A stretch of 64,000 nucleotides of DNA from a bacterium (lineage in GTDB: Bacteria; UBP14; UBA6098; 4484-93), in assembly GCA_021158465.1 (NCBI GenBank), contig JAGGUN010000035.1:10668-74667 (forward strand). Direction: 5' to 3'. The position numbers and the translations under genes were made by a program. The first letter of the stretch is position 1. Each line of letters starts with the position of its first letter. The notes beneath the pieces are model-generated. The model was not told where the DNA came from and searched no databases. It worked only from the letters and a program-made list of their open reading frames with translations. Of the stretch, positions 1,747 through 63,683 are shown one piece after another.

Positions 1747-1752
1747 CCCCGG

Positions 1753-2385
1753 TTAGCTTTTGGGTGGTTTACCCATTCTCTTTATAGCGTGCCACACTTT
1801 TACTGCCTTGGAGCGCAGCACAGGTAGGTCTCCGTTGTTCTTGATGACAAAGTTTACCCTTCTTTTGAGGATGCTGGCGAACTCCTTGTCGAAGCCCTCA
1901 TTCTGAACGGATATTCTTGCTTCGATGTCCGAGCGGGAGTACCCACGCTCGAGTAATCTGTTTGTCCTCTGCCAGGTCGGGGCATCCACGAGGATGAGAT
2001 AGTCTAGGAGTTCCATAATATCCTCCCACTTAGGCAGGAGTGCTGCGTCGATGACTGCGAGACCGGGGAAGCGGTGCGCCTCGAGGTTTGAGAGCTCCTC
2101 CTTTATCACTCGCCGGATGTAGGGATGGGTAATCTCTTCGAGATACTTGCGAGCCTCATCATCATGGAATACTATCTCTGCTATCTTCTCGGTTGATATA
2201 CTACCGTCTTCTTCCAGTATCTCATCCCCGAACCGCTCGACCAGCTGCGACTTCGTATCGGGTTTCTCGAGAGCCTCTTTACCTATCCTGTCGGCATCCA
2301 GGAGCTGGGCCCCAAGGTCCTTGAAGGTGGCTGCCACTGTGCTTTTTCCTGTCCCTATCTTTCCTGTTATTCCGACGACTATCAT
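1753..2385 (-). CDS. coaE: Dephospho-CoA kinase
   Basis: Catalyses the last step of coenzyme A synthesis, ATP-dependent 3'-phosphorylation of dephospho-CoA, in the cytoplasm. The 210-residue protein starts with the P-loop GITGKIGTGKS (residues 5-15). LLDADRIGKE follows, whose Asp is the family's conserved substrate residue, and then a THPYIRR segment also typical of CoaE. Length fits the family (about 200). It is the last gene of the long pilus operon: its start is 11 bp after the stop of the giant repeat protein, with GAGAGAAAG as a plausible ribosome binding site. Its linkage with pilus genes echoes the pilB-pilC-coaE linkage of many proteobacteria. Confidence 0.93.
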   Translation of the reverse strand: MIVVGITGKIGTGKSTVAATFKDLGAQLLDADRIGKEALEKPDTKSQLVERFGDEILEEDGSISTEKIAEIVFHDDEARKYLEEITHPYIRRVIKEELSNLEAHRFPGLAVIDAALLPKWEDIMELLDYLILVDAPTWQRTNRLLERGYSRSDIEARISVQNEGFDKEFASILKRRVNFVIKNNGDLPVLRSKAVKVWHAIKRMGKPPKS

Positions 2386-2396
2386 ATCTTTCTCTC

Positions 2397-8300: not shown

Positions 8301-10529
8301 ATCCCCATTGTGCCAGGTGCCGGTGGGCGGCGTTATCGTTAGGATCGAATCATCATGGAAGGATACCCACCTCGGGTCGACCGTAAACGGCTCACCGTTC
8401 ACCGTTATGGAGAAATCGATGCTGGATTCATCTATCGGCGCGGCGACCGGATGGATGAACAGTTCGATATACTGGTCATCGCATGCTGTTATGGAGTCGG
8501 GTTGCGGGATAACTATCTCGAGGGCAGGACCTGCAAGTGCAACATAGAATGTCCAGCAGAAGCTCGTGTCGTTCGGAGCGCAATAGTCATAGGTAGGCGA
8601 GTCCCAGGCATGAAGAATGCATACCTCCACTGTATCGCCATTGGAAAAGCTTACACCTGTTATCTCGATATGCATCCCATCGAATGTGAAGGAGTATCCG
8701 CTTATAACTGTTCCGTTCACCGACACCTGGATGTTGGAATCGACGATCGAGGATGGGTCGAGCCCGGAGATCGCATCGAATATATCAACGCCGATGACCG
8801 GTGTCGGTGTATGAACGACGGTATCCATAGGTGGGTAAGCGTTGTCGAATATAGGTGGTTCAATGTCTACCTGGAAGTTGCAGGTAACGATGTTTGCTAC
8901 GCAGCCTGAGTCATCCTCTGCACTGATGAGAGAGAATGTGACCCAGGAGCCGTTTGTCCAAGGGGTGGAGGGGATAAAATGTAGTTCGGGTGGGCTCCAG
9001 GTGAGCTGTGGGTCGGATGTTGTGTAGTTTATCCCGTTCACCTGAAGGATTATGCTCGACTCGATAATAGGAGCCATTCCCGGGCTGATGTTTATTATTA
9101 TGTCCTGGTATTCGCAGGAGGTTATTCCGCCGCAGGGGTCGGGACGAACCACCTCCGCCACAGGTGGAGACCCTTCGCAGTAAGGGATGTCGAAGCAGTA
9201 GTCTATCGAGTTGCCGTCGATATCAGGCGATGTTGTCGTCACATCGATGTGAATGCAGGTGTTTGTTCCCATACAGTCGCGGTTCAGCTCAAAACGCCAG
9301 GAAGCGCTCCCGACAGATGGGTCCAGGCAGAATGGGTCCTCCGAGGAACACAGGTCTCTTGGATCTGTATACTGCGGATTAGCTCCAGAGACGAGCGTCA
9401 GGCAGCTCGCATCATAGGTTATTGTCGCCTGGACATTGTAAGCCGTCTCATCATCGAACGGCCAGAGGGTGTAATATGTATTGCGGACGAGGAGCGTAAC
9501 ATCGATGGGATTTGGAGACAGCTCCCCGCAGCGAGCGCAGCTTATCATTATCGGGTTGAGGTTCAGCTCGAGTTCACCCTCGCTCGTTATCTCCGCACCG
9601 AGACCATAGTATGTCGCCTGTCGGAGAGTTCCACCTGGGGGAATGGAAACAGGATACCACCACAGGAGGACTGCGGAATCACCGTATGTTCCGAAGGTCG
9701 GTGTATAGTCCCAGACAACATTATAATAGGTGGGCCAGGAACCGAGGCAGATCCTGTCTGGTATCGTTGATTCAGGACCCAATATGTCACCCTGTGCTAC
9801 CATACCTGAGAGGTCATCATTCTCCCATGCTCGCCAGTAGGAGGGTATGTCTGGAGCGAGGAACTCCTGCTCGTGGTCCTCGAAGCCATAGTATGTTGAA
9901 ATCCTTGTCGCATCGTTCCCGTTTATCATCGTATCGAACTCTATCAGGAGCCCTACATTGTGCGATACTGTTCCGGTGTTCTCCATAAAATATTCGTAGA
10001 GGATAGTTGCTGAGCCAGGACCGGATATCTGGCGGGGGGAGAGTTTCTGTGTTATCCGTATGTCCCCTGCCTGCCAGACCGTCCAGATGGTGTCTCCAAC
10101 AGAATAGGGAGGAGTTGTGAGTGTAGGGACGAATGTCCCTGTAAGCCCTCGGATGTTGTAGATCACCCCATCGATATTGAAGGCGACCCAGGAGCTCCAT
10201 GGGCGCGGTGCCCCAGGGTCGACACCACCAACATCGTGACGGAAATCGTACAGGAGATCCCTGCCGGTTAGGTCTCCTTCAACGAAGTCGCCTATCCAGG
10301 TAGAGCCGCCGCCGGTGCCATCTGCATCGTCAGCTGTTGCCACACATACCCTCACATTCTGGGTAGGGTCACCACCGTTATAGTTGCTCTGGATACACAC
10401 GCAAGGGGTCATAATATCCTTCGAAGAGGAAGGATGTCTTGCCGTTTTCCACGAACCACCCTCCTGTGCGAACAGGGACCAAGAGATCATTAACCCCAGA
10501 AACGCCAAAGCCAGCCACGATCTTTTCAT
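2397..10529 (-). CDS. Giant secreted repeat protein with C-terminal sorting/FlgD-like domain
   Basis: A 2710-residue exported protein. Residues 1-21 form a Sec signal peptide (basic start, hydrophobic core, SLFAQ end). Residues about 25-450 are a Cys-containing N-terminal region I do not recognise. From about 453 to 2613 there are ten tandem units of about 216 residues, each made of two Ig-like subdomains. One carries SACxD...VDESTI...NGxxY, the other PP-VSGLD-SxxxTINDT...CxPNxLDSCWxFxI. The last 95 residues begin VHPNPFSPNGDGYNE and resemble the gliding-motility/FlgD-like C-terminal domain used for type IX-like sorting. It starts one base after the kinase gene stop, so it is coupled to the pilus operon. 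A long surface stalk or adhesin is the likeliest role; no enzyme domain is visible. Confidence 0.85.
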   Translation of the reverse strand: MKRSWLALAFLGLMISWSLFAQEGGSWKTARHPSSSKDIMTPCVCIQSNYNGGDPTQNVRVCVATADDADGTGGGSTWIGDFVEGDLTGRDLLYDFRHDVGGVDPGAPRPWSSWVAFNIDGVIYNIRGLTGTFVPTLTTPPYSVGDTIWTVWQAGDIRITQKLSPRQISGPGSATILYEYFMENTGTVSHNVGLLIEFDTMINGNDATRISTYYGFEDHEQEFLAPDIPSYWRAWENDDLSGMVAQGDILGPESTIPDRICLGSWPTYYNVVWDYTPTFGTYGDSAVLLWWYPVSIPPGGTLRQATYYGLGAEITSEGELELNLNPIMISCARCGELSPNPIDVTLLVRNTYYTLWPFDDETAYNVQATITYDASCLTLVSGANPQYTDPRDLCSSEDPFCLDPSVGSASWRFELNRDCMGTNTCIHIDVTTTSPDIDGNSIDYCFDIPYCEGSPPVAEVVRPDPCGGITSCEYQDIIINISPGMAPIIESSIILQVNGINYTTSDPQLTWSPPELHFIPSTPWTNGSWVTFSLISAEDDSGCVANIVTCNFQVDIEPPIFDNAYPPMDTVVHTPTPVIGVDIFDAISGLDPSSIVDSNIQVSVNGTVISGYSFTFDGMHIEITGVSFSNGDTVEVCILHAWDSPTYDYCAPNDTSFCWTFYVALAGPALEIVIPQPDSITACDDQYIELFIHPVAAPIDESSIDFSITVNGEPFTVDPRWVSFHDDSILTITPPTGTWHNGDTVCVTVNNVEDIYHTPSDDCPLTWCFLVDLNPPDIWGEFPADTNVTTPNPVIHISIFDSISGLYEPSVVFTINDTLSFTLSDSVFVLDPTTGEYICETVRNGITFADGETVTVCVQQAWDTPDYCDSNRIEPYCWSFTVNFIGPTAEIVRPEPDIISACDDQEIIIRVYDASGIDSSSIVLNVNGTIYTISSPYLTLDGDTLIIFQPPAGFFSDSEVVLVSLDSLADVWGNISPDTPLSWSFLVDTHPPAIYGNFPPDGAIVPDATPDIGVSIVDSVSGLSTDSVYITINDTLIFHIGDVGVDWDGENLVVHPEEAGFVFADSDTVVVCVHNAQDSPTPGYCEPNVAEEFCFSFVVSLSGPRPTIIQYMPESFVACVDTEQVLFMTIIDPDGVDPASIIFTVGDDTFTVASWELDFVNDTLIFIPSEYWTDGETVYVCLVDARDSLGNPMGSPLCWRFLIDLTPPVIWNELPSPDTLINDSLAIISFHIADSISGLDSLSVTITIDDTIVLTPGSPGVVWGDSITFDPELLGIYWNDWDTVDVCVTADDSPDYCGPNTLDSCWRFFVHLRGPVAEIVTPLPGQIAACDSQAIIIALSDDDVGVDSTTLEVIINGSTFHLDDLGIRFSGDTLYFYPYEAGWAWLDSQLVEVELVRADDNLGNPLQTPLAWDFWVDLSPPVVSDATIGPGDTVSTPTPVLCFNLTDNLSGVDETTIEVVLNDTIVLYPGSPGLSGTFPHFCIWADSIGLYVPGGDSVRICIRADDSPDICLPANHLDSCWTFHIEPGGPVATIVRPFDGAYSACIDTEHIEMIVSDEDGVVTSSIRMWVLRSTDMTDTTFIDYTTSGFSFDGENLIYYPTEPFVNAETIYVCLTDAEDIIGNPLDPSPVCWSFVMDTTPPRVWNITPPPGDVVATRTPTISMNLWDDLSGLDITGIILTINGTDYTLSDPSLTLTDSALVWDPTTAGVLFTGGDTVDVCLSAYDTPDYCGPNLLDSCWTFYIEPGGPVATIVRPFDGAHSACEDEHIVIYLTDPTGVNDSTIVLVVNDDTIGILDPRLTYEDSVLIFIPDPYFGDAETVTVELVSADDILGNPLETPLSWTFVMDRIPPEITDLSPAPEDVVVSTRPIISVILHETISWLNLDSLFFLINGDTFALDSPGVSLIEDTLFSVDCGIAGIVFGGGDTVDVCVVAYDSVDYCDPNSSDSCWTFYISPGGPIGTIIRPFDGAYSACEDTEHIEMTIEDEDSVIDETIRLMVARNGCRDTAYYEVTDPELDFTYPDLRFEPNPPFVDAETVCVALIAADDSLGNHLTSVVSWSFVMDLTPPVILIQSPLPGSYIDEREPIICVQITDSLSGINEAGITLTVAGHPYHIGDAGISWDGETICFDPAVVGTSFVGGDTIPVCIYSEDTPDYCDPNVLDSCWAFYISPGGPIPTILRPFDGAISSCPDESVAVSIVDPNGVDESTIILQVRGTDLTISDDELDFIDDSILVFHPEPPFGEAETVDVCLIEAEDNLGNPLTGAPLCWSFVVDIEPPYITDASPAPAETVSTTQPVIRFVLSDSVSGVDTSAVTLTIGGITYHLYDPGVSISGDTITFDPATAGVEWFGGTEVVVQVQAEDSPDTIYINPHTLDTTYYCSPNILDSIYSFIISPGGPVATVIRPLNETFTACIDESIAVVLRDPDGVNPETVVLTVNGATFRVGDAQITFIGDTLLIYHPDGGFADNETISVCLTHADDNLGNPLTGAPVCWQFYTDFTPPYAEMRIPTPEMMVRSDQQRIEIYVYDLMSGADVGEFVLHVAGREYHYPDFDFQPTSDSLGGLLIFNPPAVGVSFGSGDTVEVQLSVYDTPDYCDPNNDEYFWFFTIEPRVSCLVHPNPFSPNGDGYNEFVVFSYPFMFSKEGRIRVYNLRNMLIWECTVPPQTGFSNFLDRCWNGRDKHNKPVPEGLYIYAIEVEGEIVCNGTITLIR
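2690..9180 (-). repeat. Ten tandem ~650-bp coding repeats in the giant protein gene
   Basis: Unit junctions encode G-G-P-(V/I)-x-T-I-x-R-P-F-D-G or a variant. They fall near 9162, 8527, 7870, 7219, 6585, 5941, 5287, 4657, 4009 and 3340, which is a spacing of 630-670 bp. The middle and later units (from 5941 down to 4009) are close to identical at the junction in DNA as well as protein, while the first three are clearly divergent. This pattern suggests recent duplication toward the C-terminal half. The region is a likely site for assembly collapse or copy-number change between strains. Confidence 0.85.
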
Positions 10530-50951: not shown

Positions 50952-53900
50952 TCAGGTTGAGACCTGCTCTTTATCTTTCCTTTTGAAACGCTCGAAGACA
51001 GAGTATAGAACAGGGATGAACAGCAGGGTCAGGAATGTCGATGTTATGAGTCCACCGATGACCGAGCGAGCGATTGGTGCGCGGAGTTCTGCTCCCTCGC
51101 CTATACCGGCTGCCATCGGTATCATTGCTATGATGGTTGTGAGTGCCGTCATAAGGACAGGTCGTAGACGGCGTCTACCGCCTGTGATTATCGCTTCTCG
51201 GATGGGTAGCTTGTCCCGCCTGCGGAGGAGGTTTGTATAGTCAACGAGCAGGATTCCGTTGTTGACCACGATGCCGACCAGAAGCACTATTCCGATGATG
51301 GAAAGGACATTGAGCGATGTGCCTGTCCAGAAGAGCATCCAGAGAGCTCCTATGACAGCGAGCGGAATGGTGAACATTATTATGAACGGGTCCTTCAGTG
51401 ACTCGAAGATGGAAGCCATAATCATATAGACGAGTGTGATGGCAGCGATGAATGCGATCCGGAGCCAGAAGAACGATTCTTTCTGGTCCTTTGCCTGACC
51501 GCCGACGCGGTAGTAGAACCCTTCTGGGAATTTGAGGCGCGCCAGTTCCTTCTCTATGTTAGAGACAACCTTTCCGAGGTCCTGTCCCTTGTGGTTGCAG
51601 GATACGGTGACCACACGGCTCTGTTCCTTCCGTTTTATGACCGTTGGGCTGGCGGTAACTGTAACATCGGCGATGTTTCCGAGCGATACCATTTTCCCTG
51701 CTAAGCTCTTTATTGGAAACCTTTTTACATCCTCGAGCGTCCTTCGGTCGGGTTCCTCCATCCTCAGGGAGATATCGTATTCGTTCCCGCCGATGCGGAG
51801 CTTGGAGATAGTGCTTCCTCTGGTATAGGTATAGACATCGGATGAGGCGATTGCAACAGGTAACCCGACAGCGCTCGATTTGTGTGGGTCTATATGGATA
51901 GAGTAGTTTGGCTTTGTCCCCTCAATACTGCTCGTTATGTCCACAGCTCCCGGCGTCCTGCGCATAATCGCCTCAACGGAGTCGGCAAGCTCTTTTGCGA
52001 TATTCTGGTCAAACCCGTATATCTCCACTTCGATACTTGAACCACCGAATGGTCCGCCTTGCATTATCCCTTCTTGGAAATAGATCTTGGCACCTGGGAA
52101 GTTGTCGAGGATAGGTCGAACGGCATTTTCAATCTCTTTCTGGCTGCGTTTGCGCTTACTTGACGGGAGAAGTTTCACAGAGATATCTGCGATGTTATTG
52201 TCGGAGCCGACGCCGACCATTCCACCGCCACCGCTCTGGGAGTATATATTCATAGCCTCTGGGACACTTTCCTGTAGCTTAGGGAACAGCTCGTTGAGAT
52301 AGCGGTTCGTCTCCTCTAAGCTCTTGCCCGGGGGAAGTTCCATTCGCATGCTTATAAGGCGAGTGTCCATTGATGGGGTAAATTCCGTTCCGATGAAGCG
52401 AAATGGAAAAACGAGCATAACACTTATCAAAAATAGGAAGACGACGCCGATGGTGAAGGTTGTCCTGTGTGAGAGGCACCACTTAAGCCAGCGTGTGTAA
52501 GTTGTATCGATATAATCGAAGAACCGCTTGAACACTCCAAATAATCCCCTTCCGTTTCCAGTATTCACCTTGACAGGGATAACCCTCGCGGCGAGAAGCG
52601 GAATGAGTGCGAAGGCAACGAAAAGTGATGTAATCAGGGATATTGTAACTGTTAGAGCCAGGTCGTGTGAGAGTATCCCGACAACACCGGGGATAAACAT
52701 AACGGGCACGAATACGGAGAGGGTGGTTAGTGTCGATGCGACAACTGGTGATATTACCTCCTGCGTTCCGGTGAGAGCAGACTCTATTAGCTTTTTCCCG
52801 CCTTCCCTATGTCTGAAGATATTCTCCATAACGACAATAGAGTTATCGACGAGCATTCCGACAGCGAGCGCAAGTCCGCCCATAGACATAAGGTTCATCG
52901 TTATGCCCATTCCGTTCATCACGATGAATGTTGCGATGACCGAAATCGGGATAGCAAGTCCGACAATAATGGTGCTGCGGAAGTTCCGCAGGAATATAAG
53001 AAGCACGAGAATTGCGAGCAGGAACCCCTCAAGCAGGCTGTTTAAGACATTCTTCAAAGCCTTCTCGATGTATTCGGACATATCTATAATTGTTGTAAGC
53101 TTAATACCGGGTGGTAATATTTTTTCAAGCTCCTTCATCTCCTTGCGAACCCTCCGGGCGACCTCAACGGTCACGGCATCGGATTCCTTGGCGATCTGTA
53201 TAACCACACCAGGCTTCCCATCGACGAGTATAGAGGAAACCTCCTCCTTGAATGTGTCTAAAACTGTTGCCACATCCTTCAGCAGAACGGGCGTCCCATC
53301 CTGCAAGACACTGACGGTTGTATTCTTTATCTCATCGACCGAGCTGTATTCTCCGACTGTCCTAACGATGAACTCCATACCTCCCTTTTTCACCGAGCCA
53401 CCCGGCATACTCACATTTGCTGCCTGAACGGCGTTGGTAATCTCTCTCGGAGATATATTATAAGCGATAAGTTTATCCCTGTTGAGGTTTATCTGTATCT
53501 CTCGCTCGAGTCCTCCCCAGACCTCTGCTTGTGCGACACCATCGAGCCTTTCCAGGTGTGGGGCGATCTTTTCGTCGGTGATGTTGCGAAGCTGAAATAG
53601 GTCGTCTCTGCCGGATACTCCTATCACCATAATCGGCATTACCGATGGGTCGAACTTCATTGCAAGCGGCTTGGAGGCATCGGAGGGTAAAAACGCCTCC
53701 ACAAGCCCAAGCTTGTCCCTTACATCCGTCACGGCGGCATCCATATCATAGCCCCAGTTAAACCTGACGAGGGTCATCACCTGACCTTCTCTTATTATCG
53801 ATATAACATCCTTCATACCGCTAACGGTGGATAAAGCACCCTCTATCGGGCGGGCAATGATCTTCTCCACATCCTCCGGACCAACGCCCTGATATGTCGT

Positions 53901-54044
53901 TATCACCCCGACAACAGGGAAGTTTATGTCTGGGAACAGGTCGATATTCAGATTGATAAGCGAGACCAGCCCCAGGCAAACAATTATAAGGAACACCATT
54001 ATGAAGGTTATTTTTCTGTTTATAGCGATCTTTGTGAGCCACAT
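50952..54044 (-). CDS. RND-family efflux pump permease (AcrB/MdtB-like)
   Basis: A 1030-residue inner-membrane transporter with 12 TM helices and two large periplasmic loops. It begins MWLTKIAINRKITF, as in HAE-1 and related RND pumps, and has GVGPEDVEKIIARPIE early on. Near TM4, GLALAVGMLVDNSIVVMEN holds one Asp; the usual AcrB DD pair is DN here, as in many family members. VVNNGILLVDY lies in the second half. It is the last gene of the TetR-TolC-MFP-RND operon and should form a drug or toxic-compound efflux complex with them. The substrate is unknown. Confidence 0.93.
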   Translation of the reverse strand: MWLTKIAINRKITFIMVFLIIVCLGLVSLINLNIDLFPDINFPVVGVITTYQGVGPEDVEKIIARPIEGALSTVSGMKDVISIIREGQVMTLVRFNWGYDMDAAVTDVRDKLGLVEAFLPSDASKPLAMKFDPSVMPIMVIGVSGRDDLFQLRNITDEKIAPHLERLDGVAQAEVWGGLEREIQINLNRDKLIAYNISPREITNAVQAANVSMPGGSVKKGGMEFIVRTVGEYSSVDEIKNTTVSVLQDGTPVLLKDVATVLDTFKEEVSSILVDGKPGVVIQIAKESDAVTVEVARRVRKEMKELEKILPPGIKLTTIIDMSEYIEKALKNVLNSLLEGFLLAILVLLIFLRNFRSTIIVGLAIPISVIATFIVMNGMGITMNLMSMGGLALAVGMLVDNSIVVMENIFRHREGGKKLIESALTGTQEVISPVVASTLTTLSVFVPVMFIPGVVGILSHDLALTVTISLITSLFVAFALIPLLAARVIPVKVNTGNGRGLFGVFKRFFDYIDTTYTRWLKWCLSHRTTFTIGVVFLFLISVMLVFPFRFIGTEFTPSMDTRLISMRMELPPGKSLEETNRYLNELFPKLQESVPEAMNIYSQSGGGGMVGVGSDNNIADISVKLLPSSKRKRSQKEIENAVRPILDNFPGAKIYFQEGIMQGGPFGGSSIEVEIYGFDQNIAKELADSVEAIMRRTPGAVDITSSIEGTKPNYSIHIDPHKSSAVGLPVAIASSDVYTYTRGSTISKLRIGGNEYDISLRMEEPDRRTLEDVKRFPIKSLAGKMVSLGNIADVTVTASPTVIKRKEQSRVVTVSCNHKGQDLGKVVSNIEKELARLKFPEGFYYRVGGQAKDQKESFFWLRIAFIAAITLVYMIMASIFESLKDPFIIMFTIPLAVIGALWMLFWTGTSLNVLSIIGIVLLVGIVVNNGILLVDYTNLLRRRDKLPIREAIITGGRRRLRPVLMTALTTIIAMIPMAAGIGEGAELRAPIARSVIGGLITSTFLTLLFIPVLYSVFERFKRKDKEQVST

Positions 54045-54058
54045 ATTCTTGTATTCCC

Positions 54059-54955
54059 CTATTCTACGATTTCGACTGTTGCCCCATCGGATAAGTAGTA
54101 GTTTCCTCTGCTTACCACCAGGTCATCTGCAGATACGCCAGAGATGACCTCGACTGAATCCTCGTTTTCCAGTCCGAGCTTAAGCATCTTTTTATGTGCG
54201 ATGTTGTTCTTCACGGTGAATGCATAGATCTCGCCTGTTTCGAGGTTCCTTACAACGGCGTTTTGAGGGAGGATAAGAACATTCTCCTTTGTCACGGTTG
54301 GGAGTGTTACCCTGGCAAACATACCAGGTTTCAGGAGGTAGTCTTTATTTCTCACCATGCATTCTACCTTGACCGAGCGGCTCATCGGGTCGACCACGGG
54401 TGAAATGTTCGTTATCCTCCCTATGAAGACTGTGTCCGGATAGGCGTCCACGCTGATATTTACCTGTTTTACTCCGTGTAGCTCCAAGATCTTCTTCTCT
54501 GGGACGGAGAAGCTTACCTTCACGATATTCATCTTGATCACTGATGCGACAGGAACCTGAGGAGCAACATAGCTGCCAGCGTCGAGGTTCAATTGAGCGA
54601 TTATGCCTGTTATCGGGGATCTTAGCTTTGCTCGCTCATATTTCATTCCAGGGATATCCTTGCTAATGTAGGCTATTACCTCGTCCTTCACTACCAGCTC
54701 CCCCTCGTTGACTAAGAATTTCTCTATCTTCCCTGCCACCTCCGGATATACATTGACCTGCTTGTCTGGCAGAACATTTCCTGTGAAGTGCAGTTGATAG
54801 GAGAATTTCCCTTTCGTGGGATGGACAACCTTTACAGGGATAGCGGCTTTTTCTTCCTTTGCGAGTTTCTCCTTTAAGGAGACCTCCTCATAAACCCTGA
54901 AAGCAGTCAATCCAACGAGGAAGATGAGCAGGAGAACCAGAACTATCCTCTTCAT
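54059..54955 (-). CDS. RND efflux membrane-fusion (periplasmic adaptor) protein
   Basis: A 298-residue HlyD/AcrA-type adaptor. It has an N-terminal anchor helix (residues 4-22). The barrel-sandwich (lipoyl-like) halves are HFTGNVLPDKQVNVYPEVAG and LRSPITGIIAQLNLDAGSYV. A beta-barrel follows (VDAYPDTVFIGRITNISPVVD in part) and then a membrane-proximal domain. The alpha-hairpin between the sandwich halves is very short, so it may contact its partners differently from AcrA. It lies 14 bp before the pump gene. Confidence 0.9.
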   Translation of the reverse strand: MKRIVLVLLLIFLVGLTAFRVYEEVSLKEKLAKEEKAAIPVKVVHPTKGKFSYQLHFTGNVLPDKQVNVYPEVAGKIEKFLVNEGELVVKDEVIAYISKDIPGMKYERAKLRSPITGIIAQLNLDAGSYVAPQVPVASVIKMNIVKVSFSVPEKKILELHGVKQVNISVDAYPDTVFIGRITNISPVVDPMSRSVKVECMVRNKDYLLKPGMFARVTLPTVTKENVLILPQNAVVRNLETGEIYAFTVKNNIAHKKMLKLGLENEDSVEVISGVSADDLVVSRGNYYLSDGATVEIVE

Positions 54956-54973
54956 GATTATATTCCTCCGTTT

Positions 54974-56290
54974 TTATTCTTCGTGCATTGCTCTCTTGAG
55001 CTTTGCTATTGCTGTATTGTACTGGACGAGCGCCTGAAGATAGTTTACCTTTGCTTGATTGTTTGCCATTTGTGCATCAGTGTATTCTGTTTGTGAGATG
55101 AGTCCGTTCTTGTACTGTTCCTCTGCGATTCGCAGAGCCTCCTGTGCCTGAGATAGGTTTGCCTCCTGCGATTCCAGAAGCTCCTGTGCCTCCTGGAAAC
55201 TGAGGTAAGCCTGTCTTACCTCCAGTTTTATACCCTCACGTGTCTGCTTCATAGCGTAGTCTATTTGTTGGAGCTGTGAGCGAGCGCTCTTTACATCGGC
55301 AATGCGGGATAACCCATTGAATATGTCGAAATTCAGGATGAGCGATATGTTCCAATCTTTGCCCCATTTGTTCTGTTGCTGGTATGGTTTCTGATAGCTG
55401 TAGGAGAACTGTGTGACAAGCGTTGGCAGGAAGGCTCGCTTTGACATAACGAGCGCGAGGTGCGCCATCTCCCGTCTCTTTTCGAGCGATAGCAGCTCAC
55501 ACCTTCTTGAGAGCGCAGACTCTATTGCTTCCTCGAGGGTTATATCCCAATCGGGCTTGCTCAGGCTATCAACGAGTACAAACGGTGTGTCAAGAGGGAG
55601 ACCGAGTAGCAGTTTCAGAGCGTCTTCTGCAAGACGGACACCGTTTTTTGCCCGTATGAGGTTCGGCTGGAAGTTCGCCTTTGCTACCCTTGCACGCAAC
55701 AGGTCGAAATGAGACAGCATCCCCGCAGCATAAAGCGATTCCGCCTGCTCAAGATGCTTAAGAAGTTGAGCATAACCATCCTTGGTAACTTCAAGCATAT
55801 CGTATGCCCAGAGCAGGTTGTAGTAGGTTTCCTCGACCTGAAGTATAAGGTCTGATTCAGCCTTTTTGTTATCATATTCTGTTGCCTGGAGGTTCAGGCG
55901 AGATAGTTTGTATGAGTTTATTATGTTTCCACCGGCGAAGAGCGGCTGGTTAACAGTTACCGAGTAGTTGTAATTGTTCTGTTCGCCCATTTCTATCTCG
56001 ACGGTTTCCGAGAATGGAAGTCCCATCATCTCGCCCATATCTATTTTCATCTTTGGGACCTCGCCCAGCCTGGTATAGACGCCGGTGAAGCTTGCTTGCG
56101 GGAAGAATGCCGCCCTTGATTTCTCAACCTTCGCCCTTGCCTGCTCAACCGCCTCACCCGATGCAAGCAGTCCAGGGTTCCTACTACGGGCAATAGATTT
56201 AGCTTCCTCGAGCGTGAGCCGAAGCGTGTCCTGAGCGTGAAGCCCTTCAAGGAAAAGCAAGAGCAGGAGCAAAAACAAGAATCTCTTCAT
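54974..56290 (-). CDS. TolC-family outer-membrane efflux protein
   Basis: A 438-residue outer-membrane factor. The signal peptide ends at GLHAQ. Two OEP domains follow (about 25-215 and 235-430), with long coiled coils such as TLEEAKSIARSRNPGLLAS and EAQELLESQEANLSQAQEAL. NNYNYSVTVNQPLFAGGN is a typical OEP strand region. It provides the exit duct for the pump. It follows the TetR gene by 8 bp. Confidence 0.92.
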   Translation of the reverse strand: MKRFLFLLLLLLFLEGLHAQDTLRLTLEEAKSIARSRNPGLLASGEAVEQARAKVEKSRAAFFPQASFTGVYTRLGEVPKMKIDMGEMMGLPFSETVEIEMGEQNNYNYSVTVNQPLFAGGNIINSYKLSRLNLQATEYDNKKAESDLILQVEETYYNLLWAYDMLEVTKDGYAQLLKHLEQAESLYAAGMLSHFDLLRARVAKANFQPNLIRAKNGVRLAEDALKLLLGLPLDTPFVLVDSLSKPDWDITLEEAIESALSRRCELLSLEKRREMAHLALVMSKRAFLPTLVTQFSYSYQKPYQQQNKWGKDWNISLILNFDIFNGLSRIADVKSARSQLQQIDYAMKQTREGIKLEVRQAYLSFQEAQELLESQEANLSQAQEALRIAEEQYKNGLISQTEYTDAQMANNQAKVNYLQALVQYNTAIAKLKRAMHEE

Positions 56291-56298
56291 CCCTCACC

Positions 56299-56928
56299 TC
56301 ATTTCTCTACACCATGAAGGATAAACTCATAAACAGGGTTTATGTAGGACTTAATATCTTCATCGGGTTCGAAGTACCACCACCTGACGATTATTCCACG
56401 GATCACCGAGAGCAGGAATGTCGAGAAGAGATGCGGCTCCATCTCACGAAATATCCCCTCCTCTTTCCCCTCATTGTAGATTCGAGCAAGTAGGGTATGA
56501 CTCCTCTCAAAAGCAGAAAGTATCTTGTCCAAAATACCCTTCGAAAATGCCCGACTTGTTTTCTCATAGAAGAGGTGAGACTCCCTCGACAGAAACGCTG
56601 CCATGTCCTTGTCCTCGATTGCTTCTTCGAAGTTCATCCTTATGTACATAAGTATCTTCTCTTCTGGGAAGGTATCCGATGCCGCTATCTCCTCGAGCTG
56701 TTTGAGCCTATCGGTTATTATCGAGTCCAGAAGCTCGGAGACTAAAGCCTCCTTGCTTGGGAAATAGGAGTAGAGTGTGCTTTTGGCAAAGCCTGATTCC
56801 CTTGCAATCTCGTCCACAGTGACCTCGATTATGCTCCTCTTACCAAAGAGACGCTTGGCGGCATCAAGAATAAGCTTCTTATGAAGCTCCTGTTCCTTTT
56901 CCTTGCGAATCCTTCTTGGCTCTGTCAT
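56299..56928 (-). CDS. TetR-family transcriptional regulator of the efflux operon
   Basis: A 209-residue regulator. The start was set at ATG 56928 (MTEPRRIRKEKEQ) because GAAGGAG lies 5 bp before it. The frame opens 32 codons upstream, but through the promoter. The N-terminal HTH (residues about 15-60) reads ILDAAKRLFGKRS...VDEIARESGFAKSTLYSYFPSKEAL, a clear TetR signature. The C-terminal ligand domain is variable. It is the first gene of the efflux operon, so it probably represses its own promoter and is released by a pump substrate. Confidence 0.9.
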   Translation of the reverse strand: MTEPRRIRKEKEQELHKKLILDAAKRLFGKRSIIEVTVDEIARESGFAKSTLYSYFPSKEALVSELLDSIITDRLKQLEEIAASDTFPEEKILMYIRMNFEEAIEDKDMAAFLSRESHLFYEKTSRAFSKGILDKILSAFERSHTLLARIYNEGKEEGIFREMEPHLFSTFLLSVIRGIIVRWWYFEPDEDIKSYINPVYEFILHGVEK

Positions 56929-56941
56929 AAAAACTCCTTCG

Positions 56942-56993
56942 TTTGATAATCGAACTTTGAAGTTTAAAATATATACGAGGGAGTTTTTGTCAA
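56942..56993 (-). promoter_or_regulatory. Predicted efflux-operon promoter with candidate TetR operators
   Basis: Minus strand TTGACA (56993-56988) with a TATATTTT region at 56973-56966 (16 bp to TATTTT). Just downstream are two imperfect inverted repeats: AACTT-TG-AAGTT at 56953-56964 and TTTGATA-ATCGAA at 56942-56954. Either could be the repressor operator; binding is not shown. Confidence 0.45.
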
Positions 56994-57031
56994 GTAGTTT
57001 TTTGATTTTTTTGAGGAATACCAAAAATATC

Positions 57032-57084: not shown

Positions 57085-57353
57085 GCCGTGCTAGGCGGGG
57101 AGGTAGCGGTTCCCTTTACCCGAAATCCGCTTTATGCGGGGCTGAACTCCCACAGGAGGGGATAGTTCGGTGAGATAAAGGGTTCTCTGGTATGTTGAGG
57201 TCTGGACCCCGCGCGACGGCAGCTCTCGAACCCCGTCAGGTCCGGAAGGAAGCAGCGGTAAGGGATGTTCTGTTCGTGCGCCGCGGGACTATCTGGGCTG
57301 AGTATCGGAGGATACCTGCTCGTCGGAGGATTCCTCGATTGTGGGTGCACGGC
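57085..57353 (+). ncRNA. ffs: Signal recognition particle RNA, large Bacillus-type with Alu domain
   Basis: About 269 bases. The 5' end GCCGTGCTAGGCGGGGAGGT and the GCGGTTCCCT that follows match the Alu domain of Bacillus scRNA. The apical S domain contains GTCAGGTCCGGAAGGAAGCA, the conserved Ffh-binding loop. The 3' GTGGGTGCACGGC closes the terminal stem with GCCGTGC. This is the long form rather than the 4.5S form of E. coli. The exact ends are approximate. It lies 20 bp before a conserved operon of unknown function on the same strand, with no T-run between. Confidence 0.93.
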
Positions 57354-57373
57354 GTGATCTTTAGAAGGGTAAG

Positions 57374-58510
57374 ATGGGGCATATATACACACCTGGTTTG
57401 AAGGTCACGGAGTTTTACCGGATAAGGAAGAAGCGCCTTCTTCCGCTTAAGGGTAAGACGCTTGTTCAGGTCGGGGATATGGTCGGTCCTGATGATATTG
57501 TGGCTAAGGCTGACCTTCCTGGCAGAGCGGAGCCTGTGAATGTGGCGAACCTGCTTGGGATACCTCCAGCGGAGCTTCCCTTGTTTATGAAGTATAAGGA
57601 GGGTGATGCTGTTGAGAAGGGGGCGATAATAGCGGAGAGCAAGGGGTTTTTGGGGTTGTTCAAGACACAGATTCGTTCTCCATTAAAGGGTACTATTGAA
57701 AATATCTCCGCGGTCACGGGGCAGGTGCTTGTCAGAAGTGAGCCGATTCCTGTGGAGGTAAAGGCTTACATTAGGGGAAAGGTGGTTGAGGTTCTTCCGG
57801 AAGAGGGTGCTGTTATTGAGGCTGTTGGACCATTCATTCAGGGGATATTTGGCATTGGTGGTGAGCGGCACGGCAGGATAACGGTGGTTGTTTCCTCCCC
57901 TGAGGAGGTTCTTGATGAGAGCAAGATCCGCCCGGAGCATCAGGGGGGAGTGCTTGTTGGTGGGTCAATGATTACTGCTTCTGCTATGCGGAAGGCTGAG
58001 GAATACGGCGTAGCGGGCATTGTGGTAGGCGGTATTGATGATAGGGACCTACGGGATTTCATCGGCTATGACATCGGGGTTGCAATCACTGGGGATGAGG
58101 ATGTGAATACAACTCTCATCATCTCGGAGGGGTTTGGCAAGATGCCGATAGCAGAGAGGACATTTACCCTCCTAAGGAAGTATGAGGGTAAGGATGCCTC
58201 CGTTAGCGGAGCTACGCAGATAAGAGCAGGGGTTATCCGACCGGAGGTTGTCATTCCGTTGGAGGATGTGCCGGAGGAGAAGCTAAAAGAGATAGAGAAG
58301 AGGTCGGAGGAATTGCCTGTATTGAGTGTAGGGAGCTTGATGAGGGTGATCAGGGTGCCGTACTTTGGGAAGATCGGTAAGGTTGTTGCACTGCCGCCGG
58401 AGCTGGAGAAGCTTGAGAGCGAGACATCGGCAAGGGTGCTTGAGATTGAGTTTCTTGATGGCACCAGAGCGATTGTCCCGAGGGCGAATGTGGAGATTAT
58501 TGAGGAATAA
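57374..58510 (+). CDS. Conserved protein of unknown function with barrel-sandwich N terminus and KOW-like C terminus
   Basis: A 378-residue predicted cytoplasmic protein without TM helices. Residues about 30-135 look like a barrel-sandwich or lipoyl-like fold, as in RnfC N termini: GDMVGPDDIVAKADLPGRA and IRSPLKGTIENISAVTGQVL. The middle (about 180-270) has VLVGGSMITASAMRKAEEYG, GIVVGGIDDRDL and GVAITGDEDV, an alpha/beta domain. The C terminus (about 325-370) resembles a KOW motif, VPYFGKIGKVVALP...GTRAIVPRANVEII in parts. There is no lipoylation or biotin lysine motif. First gene of a five-gene unit; it may be the soluble partner of the membrane proteins. The function is unknown. Confidence 0.75.
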   Translation: MGHIYTPGLKVTEFYRIRKKRLLPLKGKTLVQVGDMVGPDDIVAKADLPGRAEPVNVANLLGIPPAELPLFMKYKEGDAVEKGAIIAESKGFLGLFKTQIRSPLKGTIENISAVTGQVLVRSEPIPVEVKAYIRGKVVEVLPEEGAVIEAVGPFIQGIFGIGGERHGRITVVVSSPEEVLDESKIRPEHQGGVLVGGSMITASAMRKAEEYGVAGIVVGGIDDRDLRDFIGYDIGVAITGDEDVNTTLIISEGFGKMPIAERTFTLLRKYEGKDASVSGATQIRAGVIRPEVVIPLEDVPEEKLKEIEKRSEELPVLSVGSLMRVIRVPYFGKIGKVVALPPELEKLESETSARVLEIEFLDGTRAIVPRANVEIIEE

Positions 58511-58525
58511 TGTGAAGGGGATAAT

Positions 58526-61255
58526 ATGAAAGCAAGAGCTATTTTGGGTGCATTAGCACTGTTTTTTCTTTCCTGTGGAGGTGGTCCACCACGGGCACCG
58601 TTTGAGGTTATAGTTGAAGATTATCCGAACGATGCCGGACGCTCGGCTATTGTCAAGTGGGAGCATTTTGCTGGGAACGGTGTGAAGGCATACAAGATTA
58701 TGCGCGGGACCACTCCAGACAATATGAGGGAGATATCTCAGATAAGCGTTGAGATACCGGCAACAAGAGACAAGTATGTTCCACCGGATACAACGGATTT
58801 CGTCGGTAAGTTTGGTTACTATCTTGTGCTTGAGGGAGAGAAGGAGCCGTTCACTGCTCATTTGGTAAGGGTGACTCCGGAGACGGAAGATTCTCTGAGG
58901 AAGATTGGCAAGAGGATAGAGAAGATTGAGACGGAGATAAAGGGTTACAATGAGGGGGTCAAGAAGACCATAATTGCTTACGGGAATTTTTATAAGCTCT
59001 ACCTCGACAATGTAAAGGAAACAGAGCTTATTCCCGTGGAAGGGTACTCGCTTACTGAAGAGGCTGGGGTGCCGAGGATTGTGCCAAACGGCAGGACTCC
59101 CATTACCTTCGTTGCTGTGAAGAAGCCGGCAGAGGAGATAAGATTTATACATTCTGGTGAGAGGATGGCAGAGTTGACTCCTGATATAGAAGGGTTCTGC
59201 AAGAAATATGGGGAGCAGGTAAGGGGTGTTATCTTGGAGGATTCGGTCAGGGTGCTTGTCAATAAGGTAGAGCTTGAGTACTCGGATGAGGATTCGCTTT
59301 GTCCGGATTCGACATATTACTATAAGATTGTCTCTGTCGGTATAAACAGGAAAGAATCGGAGAGCGAGCCTGTCTCTATCAAGCCGATAGACGATGCACC
59401 AACGCCTCTTCCTTCGCTTTATGCTCTTCTCGATACCGTCACGAATGACCTCTTTCTTAACTGGAAGACGCAGGATGAGGATATACAGAAGTATGTAATA
59501 TACATTTCTACAGCGGGTGATCTGGAACACAGGAAGGGCAGGAAGCTTCTGGAGGTAGCAGGCTCCTGGGCGTATGGGTATCCGGCAGTGGTAAGGCTTG
59601 AGGGGTTAGGAGCCTCTCTGGAGGATAGCATAATCTATGTGGCGTCGCTTGACACATCAGGTCAGGTGGCCTACACTGAGCTTAGCACGATAGTTCCTAC
59701 GCATTTTGACAGTATGCCTCCGTTGCCAGAGGGGCTTGTTGTAGATGACCTTGAGAACGACAACGGTAAGAAGCTTGTTCTTCGTTGGGAGCCGCCGACG
59801 GTGTATCTTGGTTACCGTGTTAGAGACCCTATCTCTGAGGCGAAGAAGCTTGTTCCGAAGAGTGTGGATATCTCCTCTCTCGACTACTATCTGGTGACCG
59901 AGGGTGAAAGTCGAAAGATAGTGGAGTTTGAGAACCCAAACGATGTGCCAGAAGGGGCTAAGAAGATATACTGGCTTCAGACCCCAACGCTCCGAGAGGG
60001 GGATAAGGAGCTTGTGGTTCTCTACGATCTGTACGCTAACTCTGCACGGAAGCCTGGTTATGCTATGCTCAGGCTGGACGACGGGGAACCGGTGGTGGAC
60101 GAGGATGGGGATGGGAGCTACATATTCAGCGGGGTCCCGATCGGAAAGCACAAGCTAACAGTAGATTTTCTTGACGAGAACCGAAGGGTTTTTGAGAACC
60201 CTGAGGCGCATGTGGAGATGGAGGTAAATGTTACCGCGGACAATCCTGAGGTCCCTATCGAATATCCGTCTGTGTATCTTGAGGTGGCGAGAACCTCGGA
60301 CCTTGAGGAGACCAACATAATGATGTTCGACAGGGTAAGGTTTTTGCCTGGGATGCTCCGAGAATATACGGACCCAGTCGATACAACCAAGGAGGAGTTC
60401 AAGTATGCAGTGCTTGCTTGGGACCCTTCAGGCGGTATATCGGCGACACCTATTATCGGTCCTGTGAGGCGGGTTCCCAATGTATATCATACTGGCAAAA
60501 CCACAGTTCTCATTGCTACGATAATCTTTGTTCTTGCTGCTCTTACTATGATAAGCTCTGCCAAGAAGGGGAAGCACCTATATATTCGCCCGATCGCTGG
60601 AATAAACCATGTGGACGAGGCGATAGGACGGGCAACAGAGATGGGTAGACCGATTCTCTATGTGCTTGGGTTGTCGACCATTTCGGATATAGCTACGCTG
60701 GCGGGGCTTACGATACTCTCGAGAGTGGCGAAGAAGGCAGCGGAATACCAAACCAGACTCATTGTCCCCTGCTATAACCCAATTGTTATGACAATAGCAA
60801 AGGAGACGGTTCGTTCTGCCTGTGCGGATGCAGGGAGACCGGATATGTTTAAGGAGAGGGATATATTCTTTGTCACGCAGAGCCAGTTTGCCTATGCTGC
60901 AGCGGTCAACGGTATTATGCTTCGAGAGAAGACCGCTACCAACTTCTATATGGGGATGTTCTTTGCTGAGTCGCTGCTTTTGACGGAGACGGGTTCAGCT
61001 GCCGGTTCTATTCAGATTGCTGGGACGGATGCCATTACCCAGTTGCCGTTCTTCATTACCACCTGCGATTATACCCTTATCGGTGAGGAGTTCTATGCGG
61101 CGAGTGCGTACCTATCGCAGAACCGTATCCAGATAGGGACACTCAAGGCTCAGGATGTTCTCAAGGCGATTATGATGGTGCTTATAATCATTGGGGGAAT
61201 TTGTGCCACAGCAGGGATATGGAGGTTTGTCAACATATTCCATATTCAGGTTTGA
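58526..61255 (+). CDS. Lipoprotein-like FN3 protein with C-terminal DUF6754-type domain
   Basis: A 909-residue protein. MKARAILGALALFFLSC ends in a lipobox-like LSC. Fibronectin III-like domains fill the first 640 residues (VKWEHFAGNGVKAYKIMRG; FLNWKTQDEDIQKYVIYIS). A TM helix at about 658-676 (TVLIATIIFVLAALTMI) is followed by a domain I recognise as DUF6754-type. It contains GRATEMGRPILYVLG, SQFAYAAAVNGIMLREK, FFAESLLLTETGSAAG, IQIAGTDAITQLPFF and CDYTLIGEEFYAASAYLS. A final TM lies near 885-905. The pattern suggests an envelope-exposed N terminus and a cytoplasmic DUF6754 domain. No biochemical function is known to me. It starts 15 bp after the previous gene. Confidence 0.75.
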   Translation: MKARAILGALALFFLSCGGGPPRAPFEVIVEDYPNDAGRSAIVKWEHFAGNGVKAYKIMRGTTPDNMREISQISVEIPATRDKYVPPDTTDFVGKFGYYLVLEGEKEPFTAHLVRVTPETEDSLRKIGKRIEKIETEIKGYNEGVKKTIIAYGNFYKLYLDNVKETELIPVEGYSLTEEAGVPRIVPNGRTPITFVAVKKPAEEIRFIHSGERMAELTPDIEGFCKKYGEQVRGVILEDSVRVLVNKVELEYSDEDSLCPDSTYYYKIVSVGINRKESESEPVSIKPIDDAPTPLPSLYALLDTVTNDLFLNWKTQDEDIQKYVIYISTAGDLEHRKGRKLLEVAGSWAYGYPAVVRLEGLGASLEDSIIYVASLDTSGQVAYTELSTIVPTHFDSMPPLPEGLVVDDLENDNGKKLVLRWEPPTVYLGYRVRDPISEAKKLVPKSVDISSLDYYLVTEGESRKIVEFENPNDVPEGAKKIYWLQTPTLREGDKELVVLYDLYANSARKPGYAMLRLDDGEPVVDEDGDGSYIFSGVPIGKHKLTVDFLDENRRVFENPEAHVEMEVNVTADNPEVPIEYPSVYLEVARTSDLEETNIMMFDRVRFLPGMLREYTDPVDTTKEEFKYAVLAWDPSGGISATPIIGPVRRVPNVYHTGKTTVLIATIIFVLAALTMISSAKKGKHLYIRPIAGINHVDEAIGRATEMGRPILYVLGLSTISDIATLAGLTILSRVAKKAAEYQTRLIVPCYNPIVMTIAKETVRSACADAGRPDMFKERDIFFVTQSQFAYAAAVNGIMLREKTATNFYMGMFFAESLLLTETGSAAGSIQIAGTDAITQLPFFITTCDYTLIGEEFYAASAYLSQNRIQIGTLKAQDVLKAIMMVLIIIGGICATAGIWRFVNIFHIQV

Positions 61256-61281
61256 GACTGACAATATCCAAGGGGGGGTAG

Positions 61282-61935
61282 ATGTTTCTGAAACGGCAGT
61301 TACCGCTTTTGATAACGCTCGTCTGTGGTATAATTTGGGGGGTGCAGTATTTCATTCCCCATCCGGCCAGTGAGGCAGTGTATAGCTTTTATACCGACTG
61401 GGGGCTGGTTATAGGTCTTTTCGCATCGATTCTTGGGTTCGTTAGCATAATACGCTTGCACTATATGAAGGTAAGGCATCATGCCAAGAACTGGCAGTTC
61501 TCCGTGGTGACACTTTCTGCAATGCCTGTTATGATCGTTGCTGCTATCTTGACCGGCACGGAGTCTGGAGGTGCCTTTATGTGGCTTTACAACTATGTCG
61601 AGGTGCCGATCGAGGCTACGATGTTCTCGCTTCTTGCGTTTTACATAGCATCTGCTGCGTATAGGGCGTTCAGGGCGCGCTCTGCTCAGGCAGCTGCTTT
61701 GCTCGTTGCTGCCGCTATCGTTATGCTTGGAAGGGTTCCGGTGGGAGCACAGATTTCATTCTGGTCCCATCTTTTCCCTGGAACCTCTATCCCGCAGATT
61801 GCGAGCTGGATACTGAATGTCCCCAATATGGCGGCGAAGAGGGCAATCAACCTCGGTGTGGGGCTTGGTATGATGATGGTCTCTTTGAAGATCATACTCG
61901 GAATTGAGAGAACCTATCTCGGTGGTCAAGAGTAA
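61282..61935 (+). CDS. Conserved multi-pass membrane protein of unknown function
   Basis: A 217-residue protein with about six predicted TM helices: roughly residues 7-25, 38-58, 75-95, 100-125, 130-150 and 185-205. A basic loop follows the second (RLHYMKVRHHAKNW). GTESGGAFMWLYNYVEVPIEA is a likely conserved core. I recognise no family. It lies 26 bp after the DUF6754 gene, with GGGGGGG before its ATG, and 9 bp before the next gene, so it probably belongs to the same complex. Confidence 0.7.
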   Translation: MFLKRQLPLLITLVCGIIWGVQYFIPHPASEAVYSFYTDWGLVIGLFASILGFVSIIRLHYMKVRHHAKNWQFSVVTLSAMPVMIVAAILTGTESGGAFMWLYNYVEVPIEATMFSLLAFYIASAAYRAFRARSAQAAALLVAAAIVMLGRVPVGAQISFWSHLFPGTSIPQIASWILNVPNMAAKRAINLGVGLGMMMVSLKIILGIERTYLGGQE

Positions 61936-61944
61936 GGAGATAAT

Positions 61945-62772
61945 ATGGATTTCTGGAAGAGGTTACTAAATATAGACAGAAGGATTATTTACCTTGTGAT
62001 TGCTATTACTGTGATAGTGCCGTTTTTCCTCCCCACAGGCTGGCCCATAAATGTAACATATGAGGTGAAGAACATCTACGATTATATAGAGAATCTGGGT
62101 CCTGAGGGGGTTGTGCTTCTATCCGCTGACTACGACGCCTCTACCCTTGCTGAGCTTCAGCCTATGTTTGATGCTTGTCTTAGGCACTGCTTTGCTCGAG
62201 ATGTGAAGGTGATAGTGATGTCGCTCTTTCCGCAGGGTGTCGGGCTTGCGGAGATCTCCCTAAAGCGTATTGCAAAGGAGTATAACAAGGTGAACGGAGT
62301 TGACTACTGCTTTCTCGGCTACAAGCCCGGCGGTAGCATCATTATTATGGGTATGGGCTCGAATATCAGGATCCCTTTCCCGAGCGACTACTATGGTACA
62401 CCGCTGAAAGACATCCCTATGATGAAGGACATCAATAACTTCAGCGACATTGACTTAGTAATCAGCTTCTCCGGCACAGGGATTGTGGCGAGTTGGCTGT
62501 ATTATGCTCATGAGCCTTACAATCAGGACATCGCCTGGGGTGTAACCGCCGTTATGGCATCCGATTACTACCCGTTCTTGCAGAGCCACCAGATAGTAGG
62601 TCTGATAGGCGGTATGAAAGGCGCCGCAGAATACGAAACTCTTATATCCAAGCCCAGCCTTGCTACAAGCGGTATGGATGCTCAAAGCTGGGCTCATATT
62701 ATGATTATTGTATTTATCATCATAGGGAACATCGGATACCTTGCTATGAGGAAGAAAGAAAGGAGGATGTAG
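61945..62772 (+). CDS. Conserved membrane-anchored protein of unknown function
   Basis: A 275-residue protein with one TM helix at each end (about 15-33 and 248-266) and an alpha/beta soluble domain between. GPEGVVLLSADYDASTLAEL, VKVIVMSLFPQGVGLAEIS and DLVISFSGTGIVASWLYYA look like a Rossmann-type series of strands and helices. Charges put both ends inside (KRLLNIDRR, MRKKERRM) and the soluble domain outside. The order of strands recalls the DUF6754 domain of the neighbouring 909-residue protein. It is joined to the next gene without a gap. Confidence 0.7.
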   Translation: MDFWKRLLNIDRRIIYLVIAITVIVPFFLPTGWPINVTYEVKNIYDYIENLGPEGVVLLSADYDASTLAELQPMFDACLRHCFARDVKVIVMSLFPQGVGLAEISLKRIAKEYNKVNGVDYCFLGYKPGGSIIIMGMGSNIRIPFPSDYYGTPLKDIPMMKDINNFSDIDLVISFSGTGIVASWLYYAHEPYNQDIAWGVTAVMASDYYPFLQSHQIVGLIGGMKGAAEYETLISKPSLATSGMDAQSWAHIMIIVFIIIGNIGYLAMRKKERRM

Positions 62773-63402
62773 ATGCACCTCTCGCCGAGTATAGGTGTCT
62801 GGGTTGCGGTATTCTTGACACTGTGCGTTCTCTCCTTCCTCTACAAAGACAACCCGTTTTACAAGTTCGCTGAGCATCTTGTGGTGGGTGTTTCTGTTGG
62901 CTACGGAATGGTGCTCTGGTATACGCAGGGGATACTTCCGAAGTTCATTACCCCGTTCTTCAAGGAAGGGAAGTATATCTACATTGTTCCAGCTATTCTG
63001 GGGATTATGATAACGATGCAGCTTGTGCGGAAATATGCTTGGCTTGCCCGTTTCCCGATGGCGTTCCTACTCGGGGCGAGCTCTGGTATCGGGCTACCGA
63101 GGACGATGCAGGCAGGCGTCATTAAACAGCTGGAAGCTACGATGGTCCCTATGGGGTTCTCGCGCCTCCAGTATATATGGAATATTGTTATATTTGTCGG
63201 GGTGCTCTCGGTGCTCATCTATTTCTTCTTCTCCAAGGAGCATAAGGGTGTGTTCGGCGGAATTGCAAACATCGGTATCTGGTATCTGATGATAGGCTTC
63301 GGAGCAACATTCGGATATACTGTTATGGCAAGGCTATCGCTGTTTATCGGGAGGGTGCTGTTCATCATCCAGACAGCACTCGGCATTCAGGTAGCAGGGT
63401 AG
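62773..63402 (+). CDS. Conserved multi-pass membrane protein of unknown function
   Basis: A 209-residue protein with about six TM helices (near 8-24, 32-50, 65-82, 92-105, 135-153 and 165-200). FYKFAEHLVVGVSVGYGMV, FLLGASSGIGLPRTMQAGV and WYLMIGFGATFGYTVMARLS are glycine-rich helix segments. I recognise no family. Its ATG follows the stop of the previous gene directly. It ends the five-gene unit, and a new promoter starts 9 bp later. Confidence 0.7.
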   Translation: MHLSPSIGVWVAVFLTLCVLSFLYKDNPFYKFAEHLVVGVSVGYGMVLWYTQGILPKFITPFFKEGKYIYIVPAILGIMITMQLVRKYAWLARFPMAFLLGASSGIGLPRTMQAGVIKQLEATMVPMGFSRLQYIWNIVIFVGVLSVLIYFFFSKEHKGVFGGIANIGIWYLMIGFGATFGYTVMARLSLFIGRVLFIIQTALGIQVAG

Positions 63403-63467: not shown

Positions 63468-63683
63468 ATGGCAAAGAAACAGAAGAAGGTATCGAGGAAG
63501 CCTACGCTTCCATTTGGTCCGTTGAATTATTGGTTATTTCTGGTGGGAATAATTCTTGTAGTGATGGGGTTTGTCGTTCTGTCGCAAGGTTCGCTGACAC
63601 TTGCACCGCTTCTTCTGGTGCTGGGGTATCTGGTCGTTTTGCCGTTATCCATACTTGTGAGGGGAAAGAAGCAGGGCGGTTAG
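63468..63683 (+). CDS. Small two-helix membrane protein (DUF3098-like)
   Basis: A 71-residue protein with a basic N terminus (MAKKQKKVSRK), two TM helices (about 20-38 and 44-62) and a basic C terminus. FGPLNYWLFLVGIILVVMGF and SLTLAPLLLVLGYLVVLPLS resemble the DUF3098 family of small membrane proteins. No ribosome binding site is clear (TTAGAGCAAAAACAG precedes). Its last three codons and stop lie inside the 5' end of tRNA-Val. The function is unknown. Confidence 0.7.
   Translation: MAKKQKKVSRKPTLPFGPLNYWLFLVGIILVVMGFVVLSQGSLTLAPLLLVLGYLVVLPLSILVRGKKQGG

Follow-up and report, generated by a model that had tools for sequence, protein, structure and literature searches.

A conserved membrane gene cassette encoding a DUF6754 protein and its association with a MutL-family ATPase in many bacterial phyla

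Five adjacent genes at one locus

Do five adjacent genes of no recognised function form one conserved unit, and what might their products do together? We addressed this question in the window, i.e., the whole stretch of 64,000 nucleotides that was analyzed, which belongs to a genome of 2.04 Mb in 54 contigs. A sequence-only reading had proposed that the genes are a conserved operon centred on a DUF6754-type protein and encoding one envelope complex. The five open reading frames are indeed on the forward strand and are separated by 15, 26, 9, and 0 bp. They encode p1 (57374-58510), a soluble protein of 378 residues that lacks cysteine and is the partner of a MutL-type ATPase; p2 (58526-61255), of 909 residues, with an exported N-terminal arm, a transmembrane helix, a DUF6754 domain predicted to be cytoplasmic, and a C-terminal transmembrane helix; p3 (61282-61935), an integral membrane protein of 217 residues; p4 (61945-62772), of 275 residues, with a Rossmann-like alpha/beta domain predicted to be non-cytoplasmic; and p5 (62773-63402), another integral membrane protein, of 209 residues. 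The lack of recognised function was borne out, since p1, p3, p4, and p5 have no match above the curated cut-offs of Pfam and NCBIfam.

Immediately 5' of p1 lies the gene of a large bacterial SRP RNA (57086-57352), and two tRNA genes follow the cluster. Between p5 and the tRNA genes there is an open reading frame of ~70 residues (63468-63680, forward strand) that starts with MAKKQKK and has two hydrophobic stretches. Upstream, a divergent group of genes on the reverse strand (50952-57024) encodes, as named by eye, an RND-type efflux pump (1030 aa), an adaptor (298 aa), an outer-membrane-factor-like protein (438 aa), and a TetR-like regulator (241 aa). The reverse strand of the window also has an open frame (2397-10529) encoding a product of 2710 residues and much bigger than its neighbours. 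A role in anti-phage defence was rejected, as PADLOC gave no hit, and so was a phage origin, the single weak hit being to a PHROG of unknown function.

Domains and topology of the proteins

The name DUF6754 given by the sequence-only reading is correct: residues 652-903 of p2 (60479-61234) match PF20539 with 377.5 bits for a cut-off of 27 (E=3e-113). Hence, p2 is a clear member of this family, which is a name without attached function. Positive-inside charge counts over alignments place the domain in the cytoplasm, as had been predicted. About 100 of its 268 columns are invariant among 13 sequences of the phylum, and relatives are 45-68% identical to the domain of the window. The exported arm is highly variable, whereas the core is constant, with whole proteins ranging from about 260 to 1,160 residues. 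Two other features ascribed to p2 fared less well. FN3 domains had no Pfam hit in the protein of the window, and of ten relatives two gave fn3 hits below the cut-off (E=4e-4). As for the lipoprotein-like character, the lipobox (FLSC) is imperfect, and by eye the N-terminus of many relatives reads as an ordinary export signal.

The proposed barrel-sandwich domain of p1 corresponds to a weak match of its N-terminus to RnfC_N at about 57596-57724 (E=2.6e-4), which at 21.4 bits is under the curated cut-off of 25.6. Matches to NQRA_N (15.2 bits, cut-off 25, E=0.026) and to Biotin_lipoyl (15.4 bits, cut-off 22.1) are also below threshold. We rejected a biotin or lipoyl carrier identity, because of this score and because the hairpin lysine is not invariant: in the GLFKT stretch it is replaced by arginine in some relatives. 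The barrel-sandwich-like N-terminus is followed by a highly conserved domain that is absent from the family libraries searched. A KOW-like domain had also been suggested for p1, and the profile search found no match to KOW. Relatives of p1 are 51-57% identical to it.

The other three proteins agree with their initial description as two multi-pass membrane proteins and a doubly anchored alpha/beta protein. Charge counts over alignments predict six helices in p3 and six or seven in p5, and set the domain of p4, between its two helices, on the outer side of the membrane. Relatives of p3, p4, and p5 are 36-65% identical to the proteins of the window. The C-terminal helix of p4 has invariant His251 and Asn262. 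The structure model of p4 is good (pLDDT 94.6) and its domain is Rossmann-like, with a best VIA Z of 10.2 (1kjn) and about 9.5 for a CODH chain (167-170 residues). Since this fold is common and numerous unrelated structures score nearly as high as the best one, it says nothing of function. Foldseek returned nothing below E 0.001 with the p4 model. The model of DUF6754 is too poor (pLDDT 51) for its fold search (best Z 6.1) to be usable. Strands and helices follow a like order in the p4 model and in that of DUF6754, itself at pLDDT 51, yet profile-profile comparison with hhalign gave no support for homology, as 49 of 100 column shuffles score as well. A homology between p3 and p5 was likewise not supported by hhalign. 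No convincing solved relative was found by sequence in the PDB for any of the five proteins or for the MutL protein described below.

The membrane genes are a fixed and widespread cassette

To describe the distribution of the locus, we searched 290 sampled genomes for DUF6754 and found it in 88. These comprise 16 of the 17 genomes of the phylum of the window, the 17th being 80% complete, and 72 of the 273 genomes from other bacterial families. None of 14 well-known control genomes has it. A scan of named genomes gave at least 567 related stretches. The best 80 of these, which we inspected, come from Zixibacteria, Cloacimonadota, Eisenbacteria, Fermentibacterota, CSSED10-310, WOR-3, Coatesbacteria, Mcinerneyibacteriota, TA06, and others.

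The order p2-p3-p4-p5 was found by profile in 72 of these best 80 named loci, and inspection showed that most of the rest are cut by contig ends. In a set of 40 distant loci from 38 DUF6754-positive genomes, the same run occurs in 38. The linkage of p2-p5 is thus far beyond chance. Homologues are therefore not scattered, and the genes stay together across phyla, a point that the sequence-only reading had raised as a test. Its five-gene unit needs to be redrawn, however: p2-p5 are the fixed set, while p1 goes with a MutL-family ATPase that is encoded outside the window. Beside the p2-p5 run, MutL was found in 18 of the 40 distant loci and p1 in 18. The fullest order in distant bacteria is small protein-MutL-p1-p2-p3-p4-p5 (e.g., L150, L157, L164, L166, L169, L171, L177, and L187). 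In Fermentibacterota the order is MutL-p1-p2-p3-p4-p5, and in two Zixibacteria loci the p1-MutL pair adjoins an array of cassettes on the opposite strand. Other neighbouring genes are not recurrent, and this marks where the system ends on either side. The conserved DUF6754-centred operon without assigned function is supported, but it is part of a larger system of up to seven genes.

Among the best 80 named loci, the cassette is frequently in tandem, in two or three copies, and ten loci, mostly of Zixibacteria, have three complete cassettes each. Comparing copies at the same position between genomes gives 58-73% identity on average, against 36-54% between different positions of a single genome. 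Hence, the cassettes are old, distinct duplicates of the whole unit. Variants of the cassette were also seen. One locus (L020, genome G010, 1534-7182) has two tandem full-length p2 copies, both with DUF6754, between p1 and p3, and the Cloacimonadota loci L105, L107, and L109 have a similar doubling after p5. In L151 and L173, of one family, p2-p3 is followed by a p5-matching frame of more than 700 residues, which may be a fusion or an extended p5.

A MutL-family ATPase accompanies p1

In relatives, the gene upstream of p1 encodes a protein of the Pfam MutL family, mostly of about 600-660 residues. The genome of the window has it on another contig (G000:C31), where it matches PF13941 with 434.5 bits for a cut-off of 27. 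Scanned alone against Pfam, the protein matches only MutL and Hydantoinase_A. Its motifs DCGSTTTK, GVDIGGATTD, and GSGGVLSH are intact in the alignment, and we read them as the motifs that an ASKHA ATPase should have. No other component of the system is as conserved as MutL, which shows 66-80% identity among ten sequences from three or more phyla. On contigs that hold both MutL and p1, mostly about 400 bp separate the two, even if the cassette is elsewhere, and a small protein of about 95-170 residues is often encoded immediately 5' of MutL.

These genes co-occur. Strong p1 matches were found in 47 of 50 DUF6754-positive genomes and in none of 50 DUF6754-negative ones (Fisher's exact p=5e-25, uncorrected for shared ancestry); a 48th match among the positive genomes is weak and partial. 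MutL matches occur in 37 of 40 DUF6754-positive genomes, and above the cut-off in two of 40 negative ones, where the frames are shorter (455 and 503 residues). Among 30 genomes with cassettes, 29 have MutL and 28 have p1, in one case only as a fusion to MutL. The copy numbers of the parts differ: there are 87 DUF6754 matches in 30 genomes and 28 full-length p1 in 27 genomes, and the long MutL is mostly single in the 30 cassette genomes. Hence, in the genomes counted there is usually one MutL-p1 pair for one to six membrane cassettes. Exceptions exist, since one genome (G034) has p2-p5 without detectable p1 or MutL and three others (G036, G108, and G127) lack p1. In these, the membrane module may function by itself or rely on partners that have diverged.

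MutL, or GlmL, is known as an accessory protein of glutamate mutase. We found no GlmE (PF06368), the glutamate mutase subunit, in the 25 carrier genomes searched, and the name MutL therefore does not reveal what the protein does; here, the ATPase is instead paired with p1 and the membrane cassette. A role as accessory of a B12 mutase was rejected on this ground and because the MutL-p1 fusion paralogues examined have no mutase neighbours. A link to biotin carboxylases or decarboxylases was rejected as well, since the carrier-sized small genes 5' of MutL have no Pfam biotin domain. The fusions of MutL with a p1-like domain are extra paralogues of about 880-1,030 residues (L140, L141, L142, and L143; likewise G031:C97, G044:C276, G131, G165, and G199). 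Their neighbours are varied and include a SurA-like rotamase, an HlyD-type protein, and a heptosyltransferase.

A possible two-module system

Linkage and co-occurrence suggest that the products of p1-p5 form one complex. With a likelihood that we place a little below even, all these genes would make up a single widespread system of two modules, in which a shared MutL-p1 ATPase acts on p2-p5 membrane complexes through DUF6754. The computed support for this model consists of the linkage, the co-occurrence, the copy-number asymmetry, the topology by charge, and the ATPase motifs. The first module would be cytoplasmic, usually present once per genome, and composed of the actin/Hsp70-like MutL-family ASKHA ATPase and p1, often with the small protein in front. 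The second would be an inner-membrane complex of p2, p3, p4, and p5, in one to six copies per genome counted. MutL would bind and hydrolyze ATP and act through p1, as an adaptor, on the cytoplasmic DUF6754 of p2. This could drive a conformational change of the p2-p5 complex, or restore that conformation after each turnover, while p2 and p4 would use their exported arms to bind a substrate or partners in the envelope, across the membrane. A single ATPase module might thereby serve several membrane complexes differing mainly in their exported arms. We infer that the system may couple energy and possibly take part in transport.

Group II ECF transporters have a shared energising module and several membrane specificity modules. 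The likeness is one of layout only, with one cytoplasmic ATP-using module per genome and several membrane modules: we found no homologue of the ABC ATPase, EcfT, or S-component, and there is no common sequence. In the platforms of type IV pili and type II secretion (PilM-PilN-PilO-PilP, GspL), an actin-like protein also sits beside membrane proteins with exported domains. None of p1-p5 has a Pfam match to these families. More generally, no transporter or pilus/secretion platform family was matched above the cut-off by p3, p4, or p5, and no membrane-module subunit matches a known transporter in Pfam or NCBIfam. Hence, the set corresponds to no known transporter or enzyme complex in these searches.

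The asymmetry in copy number is also compatible with a chaperone for maintenance or assembly. MutL-p1 might then assemble or reactivate a membrane-bound p2-p5 enzyme at the expense of ATP without powering each cycle, as has been proposed for GlmL and is known for diol-dehydratase reactivases. The membership of the MutL family, the single MutL-p1 pair for several cassettes, and the Rossmann-like domain of p4, as in many enzymes, argue for this explanation. Yet GlmE is missing from 25 of 25 genomes, and p2-p5 have no recognised cofactor or catalytic motif and match no known enzyme family in Pfam or NCBIfam. We consider it rather unlikely. The high variability of the exported arm of p2 on a constant core could also be that of a sensor, in which the arms of p2 and p4 sense the envelope, DUF6754 relays the signal inward, and MutL-p1 is the regulated output. 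This seems improbable, since no output domain, such as a kinase, cyclase, or regulator, is found recurrently beside the cluster, and two more multi-pass subunits that are nearly always there would be unusual for a sensor. The weak hits of p1 to RnfC_N and NQRA_N might in turn suggest a relative of the Rnf/Nqr complexes, with an energy-coupling or redox role. Both are under the curated cut-offs, p1 has no cysteine, and no Rnf or Nqr membrane subunit was matched in Pfam or NCBIfam, which makes this relationship very improbable.

What was already known is that Pfam names DUF6754 and MutL. A link between the two, the families of p1 and p3-p5, and any function for them were not found in Pfam, NCBIfam, PHROG, PADLOC, or the literature, where a search of openly available journals found no paper on DUF6754 or PF20539. 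The system as a whole is probably new, although a structure might yet show it to be remotely related to a known kind. The broader reading of the two-module model is that we are dealing with a class of membrane machine not described so far, which the usual model bacteria lack and in which one module per genome, with an actin/Hsp70-like MutL-family ATPase, serves several four-subunit complexes. This is conceivable, and on balance we lean against it. If true, such a machine would be common to many bacterial phyla that have no well-studied members. The fixed gene order, the spread to 72 of 273 genomes of other families, and the identity of the ATPase suggest that the system probably has a basic role in the cells that carry it. 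Where genes of these genomes are annotated as MutL or glutamate mutase L, the name probably misleads. Viewing the DUF6754 membrane genes, p1, and the MutL-type ATPase as one system provides a concrete basis for interaction and knockout work.

A putative exchange at the locus of the window

The arrangement in the genome of the window differs from that of its relatives. Here, p1 is immediately 3' of the SRP RNA, whereas in the relatives G010 and G011 it is dnaX that occupies this place, and in several relatives, including G010, p1 is immediately 3' of MutL. Contig C31 of the genome of the window has two small genes and MutL, with dnaX immediately after. Judging from these junctions, SRP RNA-p1 (57086-57374) and MutL-dnaX (L144:5332-7990) look like the reciprocal products of one exchange between MutL-p1 and SRP RNA-dnaX, which may have been a single event. 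Such an exchange would account for the presence of the five genes in the window without their ATPase. The two small conserved proteins encoded upstream of MutL on C31 (L144:5332-5739 and L144:5744-6124) have no Pfam match; one has 136 residues with hydrophobic stretches, and the other has 127 residues and, in relatives, the motif FLESxKPLxFLGxQ.
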